Origin: Dehalococcoidia bacterium
Lineage (GTDB): Bacteria; Chloroflexota; Dehalococcoidia; Bin125
Reading direction: 5' to 3'
DNA: 64,000 bases
Assembly: GCA_022828105.1 (NCBI GenBank)
Contig: JAJEJC010000005.1
Span: 124,001 to 188,000, forward strand
The translations under genes and the position numbers were made by a program. The notes below the pieces were generated by a model. It searched no databases and had not been told where the DNA came from. It saw nothing but the letters and a program-made list of their open reading frames with translations. Position 1 is the stretch's first letter. Each line of letters opens with the position of its first letter. Of the stretch, positions 24,912 through 28,285 are shown piece after piece.

Positions 24912-25310
24912 ATGTCACACGCCGCCAACCCACCCCTCCCCTTCACCAACGACGCCATCATCGACCGCCTCCGACACCAGGCCACCAATGGCCCCGCCTA
25001 CGTCCAGCACAGCGCCACCAAGGCCCTCGCCCACATCAAGGGTCTCTACGCCCAGGCCCAATACGATGCCAGGCTCGCCTACGACACCGCCCGCCTCGCC
25101 CTGCGCGACTCGGTACAGGACGCTCCCACCAACGACAGCGACCACGCCGACGACGGCAAGATGTGCCTCGCCAAGCGCATGGAGGGCCTCAACAACGGCA
25201 CCCTCCAGCCCACACCCGAAGAACTCGCCCACTTCGAGCCGGACAACCCCGCTCAGGCCGAAGATGACGACGAAGACCACCCACAGGAGCAGGAAGATGA
25301 ACCTCCCTAA
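24912..25310 (+). CDS. Hypothetical acidic protein
   Basis: 132 residues, not recognised. The first about 80 residues are predicted helical (RLRHQATNGPAYVQHSATKA, then HIKGLYAQAQYDARLAYDTA). After residue 100 comes a strongly acidic, Pro/Gln-rich disordered tail (AEDDDEDHPQEQEDEPP). AGGAG lies eight bases before the ATG. Flanked by repeat copies 2 and 3, so it may have moved with them. No function is proposed. Confidence 0.65.
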   Translation: MSHAANPPLPFTNDAIIDRLRHQATNGPAYVQHSATKALAHIKGLYAQAQYDARLAYDTARLALRDSVQDAPTNDSDHADDGKMCLAKRMEGLNNGTLQPTPEELAHFEPDNPAQAEDDDEDHPQEQEDEPP

Positions 25311-25808
25311 TCCCCGCCACGATCCCGCGCCGCTCGCCCTCGCGGTTACTCCACTCCGACCGCCGTGTTTTTCCCCTCTCCCCCCGCCTTCGGCGGGGGG
25401 AGATGCCGAAGGCAGAGGGGACTCCCCCACGCCGGCCTGGGCCGGGCGTCTTCCAGCCCCTGTGACCACAGGGACCTGCTCCCTCTCCTCCCTCCAGGGT
25501 GCAGATGTCACGTAGGGCCTGCCCCTGCGAACGCTGGGGACAGAGGGGGGCTCCTAACGCTCGCCGATATTGTGTGAGCGACCCGCCCTCCTCCGCGATT
25601 GCGAGCCCCAATGACCGACTCCACGTTCATCAACTTGCGCTACTACTTTGTCCACCCGCCGTTCGGCCGCCCCGCCCTCATCACCGACCGATGATCTGGA
25701 ACGTGAACCATGACCGATCAGATTGACACCGACGCCGCGCGTTCAATACCTTGCCACAGAGACCGCCCGCGCAACGGGCCGTAATGCCGTACACGAACGG
25801 AGTTGATC
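25311..25808. other. Non-coding interval with repeat copy 3; no gene supported
   Basis: 498 bases with no convincing open reading frame on either strand. It holds repeat copy 3 (25373-25428), then C/T- and G-rich low-complexity sequence to about 25560. The ribosome site GGAG of the downstream LLM gene lies just before 25809. No tRNA or other RNA gene was recognised. Confidence 0.6.
25373..25428 (+). repeat. Dispersed palindromic repeat, copy 3 (most regular)
   Basis: The cleanest copy. CCCCTCT pairs with AGAGGGG as an outer stem; inside lie a nine-base-pair hairpin (CCCCCCGCC, TTC loop, GGCGGGGGG) and a short TGCC-GAA-GGCA hairpin, then ACTCCCCC. The fold is a three-way junction on paper. 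Confidence 0.85.
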
Positions 25809-27214: not shown

Positions 27215-28285
27215 ATGATTCGGACAATCCTGGCCCTCGCTCTCGGCGTCAGCGCAGTACTCGCTGTGCTCGCAGTGCTCACGCTGGCGCCGTTCAGCGG
27301 CGGCTCGTCTGCCACGTCTGCCGCCGCGCAGGACGCAACGTCTGTCCAGGTTCGCGCCAGGCTGGTTGCCAGCGGTTCGATCGAGTTCGGCCTGCGCGCA
27401 GGCGGACAGGACCTGACCCCGAGGGCGCGATTCTTCCCGGCGGGCGATCGGGTCACGAGTTGGCTGGTCAGCAGCCCGTTGGACCTGGCCAACGGCGCAG
27501 AGGTGCAGATCATCGCCCGGCGTCGCGCGAGTGGATCCGTTGAATTCGGCGTTCGCACGGTCGAATCGGGGCGGAGGTTCCTGCCCCGAGGTCGATTCTT
27601 CCCCGGCAACGCCACGGTGGGACGTTGGCTGATCAGCACCCCCGTGAGCATTCCCGCGCCCGATCCTCCGGTCGAACCGGAAGAGCAGGCCTCTGGGTCC
27701 CAGCCATCCGCTCCCGAGCAGTCCGACGAGTCAACCGAAAGCGTCGAGCGCATCTCCGGCGGACCTCGCGACGGGCTGATTGTTGAGGGCAACATCGTCG
27801 GCGACCCCGACGCGCCGGTGCTGATCGTCGAATACGGCGATCCGTTTTGACCAGAATGCCGCCGTATCGCGACTCAGGTTGAGCCGCGACTGATTGACGA
27901 GTACGTCCGCACCGGTATCGCCCGGTTCCAGTTCGTCAACATCGCCTACCTCGGCGCAGCGTCCGAGCGCGTCGGATACGCCATGGTCTGCGCCACGCAA
28001 CAAAGCGGCGCAGCCTTCTGGCAGTTCCATGATCGCTTCCTTGTAGACGGCATCCGAGCCACTTCTCGCGCACAGCTGATCGACTACGCAGGCGACATCG
28101 GCCTCGATACCGACAGCTTCACCAAGTGCTACGACGACCCTGCGACCCGCCAGAAGCACAATGACAACGTCAATGCAGCGCGGAGTATTGGCATCTCATA
28201 CGGCCCTCGGATTCATGTCAACGGAGTCAACTCCGGGAGAAGTTTCGAGAGCATTCGGCGACAGGTCGAAGCCGCGACTCGCTGA
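27215..28285 (+). CDS. Secreted DsbA-like thioredoxin-fold protein, probable selenoprotein (in-frame TGA at the active site)
   Basis: 356 residues if TGA at 27848-27850 is read as selenocysteine (residue 212). Without read-through only a 211-residue stub results. Residues 1-30 form a signal peptide or membrane anchor. Two imperfect repeats follow (about 45-92 and 97-146), each with an SGSIEFGLR/SGSVEFGVR-type strand and a RFFP turn, family unknown. After a Pro/Glu/Ser-rich linker the DsbA/Thioredoxin_4 domain begins DPDAPVLIVEYGDPF, then U-P-E-C, then RRIATQVEPRLIDEYV. TGA thus replaces the first Cys of CxxC, while the second Cys remains. Downstream of it the frame continues through the helical insertion (FWQFHDRFLVDGIRATS) to the cis-proline loop YGPRIHVNG. 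The role would be disulfide or selenenylsulfide exchange outside the cytoplasm. Start ATG at 27215. A nonsense mutation or base-call error cannot be excluded. Confidence 0.8.
27851..27888 (+). promoter_or_regulatory. Candidate bacterial SECIS element
   Basis: Just after the in-frame TGA, bases 27868-27888 can form CGCG-A-CTCA, loop GGT, TGAG-C-CGCG: two 4-base-pair stems with an A:C mismatch between them. The apical loop begins GG and lies 26 bases after the TGA. Bacterial SECIS models require a hairpin shortly downstream of UGA with a G among the first two loop bases; this one agrees. The hairpin sits inside the coding sequence, as bacterial SECIS elements do. Confidence 0.55.

Follow-up and report, generated by a model that had tools for sequence, protein, structure and literature searches.

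In the 64,000-nucleotide stretch of DNA analyzed here (the window), the gene at positions 27215-28285 almost certainly encodes, as judged from its sequence, a secreted DsbA/DsbG-like thioredoxin-fold thiol-disulfide oxidoreductase in which the UGA at codon 212 would be read as selenocysteine (Sec). This reading is based on the conserved UGA at the column of the catalytic Cys, the coding sequence that follows it, a covarying hairpin, and the full Sec machinery of the genome.

Reading frame and domain organization

A TGA at 27848-27850 (codon 212) is the only stop inside the frame, which ends at its own terminator, TGA at 28283-28285. The translation reads MIRTILALALG...EYGDPF-stop-PECRRIATQVEP...YGPRIHVNG...EAATR-stop. 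As the first-pass annotation had claimed, a DsbA/Thioredoxin_4 frame beginning at 27215 is divided by this TGA; the translation bears this out, and the Pfam Thioredoxin_4 match (residues 193-352) runs across codon 212. Both Pfam scores of the protein were above gathering (PF13462, 67.4 bits with a gathering score of 23.2; PF01323, 29.8 bits with a gathering score of 25.6). The expectation that gene callers would report two fragments also held, with table 11 gene calling producing 27215-27850 and 27983-28285. From the N terminus, the protein starts with a predicted signal peptide, which is followed by two beta repeats of ~48 residues each, an acidic linker, and the DsbA-like domain, with the following features:

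27215..28285, + strand: whole predicted selenoprotein gene; 356 codons plus stop, with UGA as putative Sec at codon 212
27215..27334, + strand: putative signal peptide region with a SAAAQ-DA type cleavage site and no lipobox, read from the sequence
27344..27487, + strand: N-terminal beta repeat 1, from repeat alignment; recurs elsewhere in the genome; modeled with pLDDT ~77-91
27503..27652, + strand: N-terminal beta repeat 2, from repeat alignment, recurrence elsewhere in the genome, and the model
27791..28270, + strand: Thioredoxin_4/DsbA-like domain, residues 193-352 (PF13462, 2.2e-18; PF01323, 6.2e-07)
27848..27850, + strand: UGA predicted to be read as Sec, at the start of the U-P-E-C active site; TGA in every ortholog and paralog of the order, Cys in distant homologs
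27857..27859, + strand: putative resolving Cys215 of the UxxC site, invariant in the alignment
27868..27888, + strand: candidate SECIS hairpin (stem, 27868-27875 with 27881-27888; loop AGGUU, 27876-27880), from conservation, covariation, and fit to the bSECIS model
27989..27991, + strand: additional Cys259, invariant across 20 forms with Sec or Cys
28127..28129, + strand: additional Cys305, invariant in the alignment
28205..28207, + strand: predicted cis-Pro331 of the YGP loop; Pro invariant in the alignment, cis state assumed from the fold family

The hydrophobic N-terminus is kept in the orthologs of the gene. Cys259 and Cys305 may possibly pair as a structural disulfide. The neighborhood is also conserved, with one gene upstream and two genes downstream; by our reading of their sequences, these are probably an LLM-type flavin oxidoreductase and two VOC-type genes, respectively.

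Conservation of the TGA codon and of the downstream sequence

An ortholog with exactly one TGA was found in 13 genomes of the genus, including the host genome itself, and was not detected in two further members. Across the order, exactly one TGA was present in all 65 of the 65 family matches. In 14 Cys homologs of the class, the TGA codon column is occupied by TGC or TGT and coincides with the first Cys of CxxC, which is where the first-pass annotation had placed it. The part after the TGA was 144-145 codons long in each of the 11 orthologs measured, with TGA, TAG, or TAA as the terminator, and the median dN/dS over 55 pairs was 0.195 after the TGA compared with 0.30 before it. These rates indicate that purifying selection acts on the part beyond the UGA.

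An open frame beyond the stop was considered as stand-alone evidence and rejected. Such a frame is weak evidence alone because the window is GC-rich and similar frames are common: 15 of the 70 TGA-ended frames of at least 200 codons in the window, about 1 in 5, have at least 140 open codons after the stop. The frame described here stands above chance because all orthologs have TGA at this codon and the downstream length is conserved. Cys in relatives, other copies with an in-frame TGA, and a conserved downstream frame, each of which the first-pass annotation had pointed to as bearing on its proposal of a probable selenoprotein, were all found. The proposal is supported, with none of its own refuting conditions borne out in the genomes compared. 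Since the assemblies of related species all have TGA, a sequencing error is very unlikely.

In a tree of 81 domains, 63 Sec rows lie around the window gene, with no Cys rows among them. The Sec and Cys labels cluster on this tree, with four label changes overall. More than one gain or loss of Sec seems to have occurred in the DsbA-like domain. The closest named records were the Chloroflexota MAGs RHO1_bin_20, bin125, and SB0664_bin_15, which, from their names, we take to be of marine-sponge origin. No relative was found on viral contigs, and plasmids contained only homologs with <60% identity.

Tandem paralogs

Elsewhere in this genome (C4:375559-377814) lie three tandem DsbA-like lipoprotein paralogs with one TGA each. 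The extent of this array is also given as L060:1934-4351, corresponding to C4:375433-377850. Across the genus, three or four copies of the tandem paralogs are present per genome, all with UGA. A lipobox is present in all three paralogs of the host genome, and beta repeats are absent before the UGA. The window gene is part of a Sec-only branch, and in the genus this branch has grown to four or five paralogs per genome. Separately, dense intergenic repeats were observed at L060:4350-5800, and similar ones at 24990-25610 of the window. Several of their frames read as PPPxGGGRCRRQRGG or LSPRASGGRC-like peptides, and they look like a dispersed intergenic repeat.

A candidate SECIS hairpin downstream of the UGA codon

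The conserved sequence after the UGA, GCGnCUC AGGUU GAGCCGC, can be folded into a hairpin (27868-27888) that begins 17 nt after the UGA, with its loop 25 nt after it. Of the eight stem pairs, six are intact in 62-67 of the 68 UGA copies compared with 2-9 of 14 Cys copies, and four pairs change on both sides. The covariation score, 0.179, was higher than that of all 500 shuffles (mean, 0.089) and of every slid version. By this comparison, the predicted hairpin is kept in the UGA copies and lost in the Cys copies.

The published bSECIS model, as given in PMC13188914, has an apical loop of 3-9 nt with G within the first two positions and a spacing of 16-37 nt. Its stem is 4-16 bp long, with at least 4 bp in the upper stem, and its energy is ≤ -7.5. 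The window hairpin agrees with these rules, with the loop AGGUU (or GGU closed by A-U), a spacing of 25 nt, and an MFE of -10.9 kcal/mol. The stem of the window hairpin has one A.C mismatch (1x1), owing to which a strict uninterrupted-stem scan misses it. Taken alone, the hairpin folds no better than shuffles (z, -0.36), and a simple bSECIS scan is passed by ~10% of all TGAs in the window. The single-sequence hairpin was rejected as stand-alone evidence for these reasons, and only the cross-copy comparison carries weight.

When the genome was searched with a covariance model, four strong sites were detected at 55-63 bits, identical to the four Sec genes, and the next site scored 19 bits; because the model was trained on those four genes or close relatives, this result means only that further strong sites of this type are absent. 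An Rfam scan of the window gave nothing at the gathering score. UGA forms of the same DsbA-like domain were also observed in more distant lineages, at three loci from other families of the class (L076, L077, and L078), and in two of these the hairpin is placed differently (GCCCU-CGGGYC-AGGGC).

Sec-decoding machinery and alternative readings of the UGA codon

The host genome is 2.74 Mb in size and 97% complete, and the window lies on contig C5. All of selA, selB, selC, and selD, which the first-pass annotation had suggested searching for in the same genome, were present: tRNA-Sec (selC) with the anticodon UCA at C7:157195 (70 bits), selB at C9:431161 (324 bits), selA at C4:26935 (526 bits), and selD at C4:303510 (354 bits). 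The selD gene has its own in-frame TGA in the CGGUGSK loop, which is where SelD selenoproteins carry Sec. Among genomes with UGA forms, selA was above the cut-off in 19 of 19, which are related to one another and thus not independent, compared with 94 of 148 genomes overall. Some genomes with Cys forms have no selA.

A pseudogene with a nonsense mutation, or an assembly error that turned TGC/TGT into TGA, so that the cell would make just the N-terminal part or no protein, can hardly be credited. Gene callers do yield two fragments, and long frames after stops are common in the window, but the same TGA recurs in the ortholog of 13 genomes and in every one of the 65 family copies in the order, and purifying selection continues after it. 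We also regard it as very improbable that the UGA is read as another amino acid (Trp, Cys) by a reassigned code or by plain read-through. Organisms that read UGA as Trp exist, and a near-cognate tRNA could in principle read UGA at the Cys column. However, genes of this genome, the window gene included, terminate in TGA; tRNA-Sec(UCA), SelA, SelB, and a UGA-containing SelD are present; and the UGA is followed by a SECIS-type hairpin that is lost in Cys forms.

Functional termination at the UGA has a small but appreciable probability. The main product would then be a 211-residue repeat protein, and Sec read-through would act as a selenium-dependent switch giving a minor full-length form. Bacterial Sec insertion competes with release, and the N-terminal repeats occur in other proteins that have no Trx domain, both of which speak for this possibility. 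By contrast, the three tandem paralogs share the UGA without having repeats before it, so that truncation would leave no domain, and of the two parts of the gene, the one beyond the UGA is under the stronger selection.

In the preferred reading, in which the UGA specifies Sec, the hairpin would recruit SelB with Sec-tRNA(UCA). In the U-P-E-C active site, Sec would then make the attack and Cys215 would resolve the selenenylsulfide. This reading restores a gene that would be broken in two by standard annotation in at least 13 related genomes, and it reveals a Sec-only paralog family (65/65 matches in the order) below the cut-off of the nearest curated model. That all copies of this presumably exported disulfide enzyme have kept Sec, with Cys in its relatives, raises the testable question of what selenium adds.

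N-terminal beta repeats and structure models

The beta repeats of ~48 residues (27344-27652) are without a Pfam name and may anchor or target the protein at the cell surface. Their pattern, DGsiEFGLR...lPrgRffP...WLiSsPv, recurs about a dozen times across the genome (including loci L002-L008), in proteins that are otherwise unrelated to one another, and one of the carriers is an RCC1-like protein directly upstream of selB. AlphaFold models of both the full-length protein and the domain were poor in the catalytic part, with pLDDT mostly <50 around the active site, because only four sequences were usable. Fold searches with the poor catalytic-domain model returned DsbA chains first, weakly. The AlphaFold-based fold matches were set aside as proof, given the poor active-site model and the weakness of the matches.

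Redox partners and direction of electron flow

We infer export, redox chemistry, and a direction of electron flow for the window protein. Neither DsbB nor VKOR was found in the 97% complete genome, in which PF02600 and PF07884 gave no match at 1e-3 with positive controls included. A CcdA-like membrane protein is present with its two Cys-containing segments. Because this protein is present and DsbB/VKOR is not detectable, a reducing or isomerizing role seems somewhat favored over DsbA-type oxidation. That the selenoprotein is instead a DsbA-type oxidase, re-oxidized by an unrecognized partner or by small oxidants, is a serious contender, if the less probable one. The nearest solved sequence, BdbD, is an oxidase, and the fold-search matches are mostly DsbA chains, although weak. 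The failure to find DsbB/VKOR and the presence of the CcdA-like reductant channel argue against it.

A broader interpretation is possible but rather doubtful: a Chloroflexota clade related to the presumed marine-sponge MAGs might have built its extracytoplasmic thiol-redox system on four or five obligate-Sec DsbA-like paralogs that never revert to Cys, without DsbB/VKOR, and with one paralog joined to a new surface beta-repeat module.

Comparison with known systems

The SECIS hairpin, the tandem Sec paralogs, the N-terminal repeats, and the prior description of UxxC selenoproteins were absent from the first-pass annotation. UxxC selenoproteins of pfam13462 (DsbG-like) and pfam01323 (DsbA-like) are already listed in passages of reviews and surveys (PMC9312934, PMC2398784, and PMC13188914), and the families described there share the Pfam domains and the UxxC site of the window gene. 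These passages do not place the families in Chloroflexota. In contrast to the families as listed there, four or five Sec paralogs per genome occur here, one of which is fused to a repeat region. Selenoproteins of sponge Chloroflexota were not described in the literature searched, although such reports may exist elsewhere.

The strongest curated match was NCBIfam NF041057, the Rcas_1661 family thioredoxin-like (seleno)lipoprotein, in which Sec is optional. Its alignment covers the catalytic domain in the window gene and in all three tandem paralogs, but the equivalog cut-off of 190 bits was missed by both the window gene (118.1 bits) and the paralogs (122-158 bits). The name of the founder, Rcas_1661, suggests Roseiflexus, a member of Chloroflexota. 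Unlike the NF041057 lipoproteins, the window protein has no lipobox, as read from its sequence, and has two N-terminal beta repeats. Compared with BdbD and DsbA, the thioredoxin-fold domain with a helical insert, the CxxC position, and the cis-Pro are alike by sequence, whereas the first Cys would be replaced by Sec in the window protein and a DsbB or VKOR partner was not detected in its genome. These comparisons indicate that this kind of selenoprotein is already known and that what is new is a branch that scores under the NF041057 cut-off, the expansion of this branch with Sec alone, and, in the window copy, the fusion to two unnamed beta repeats.
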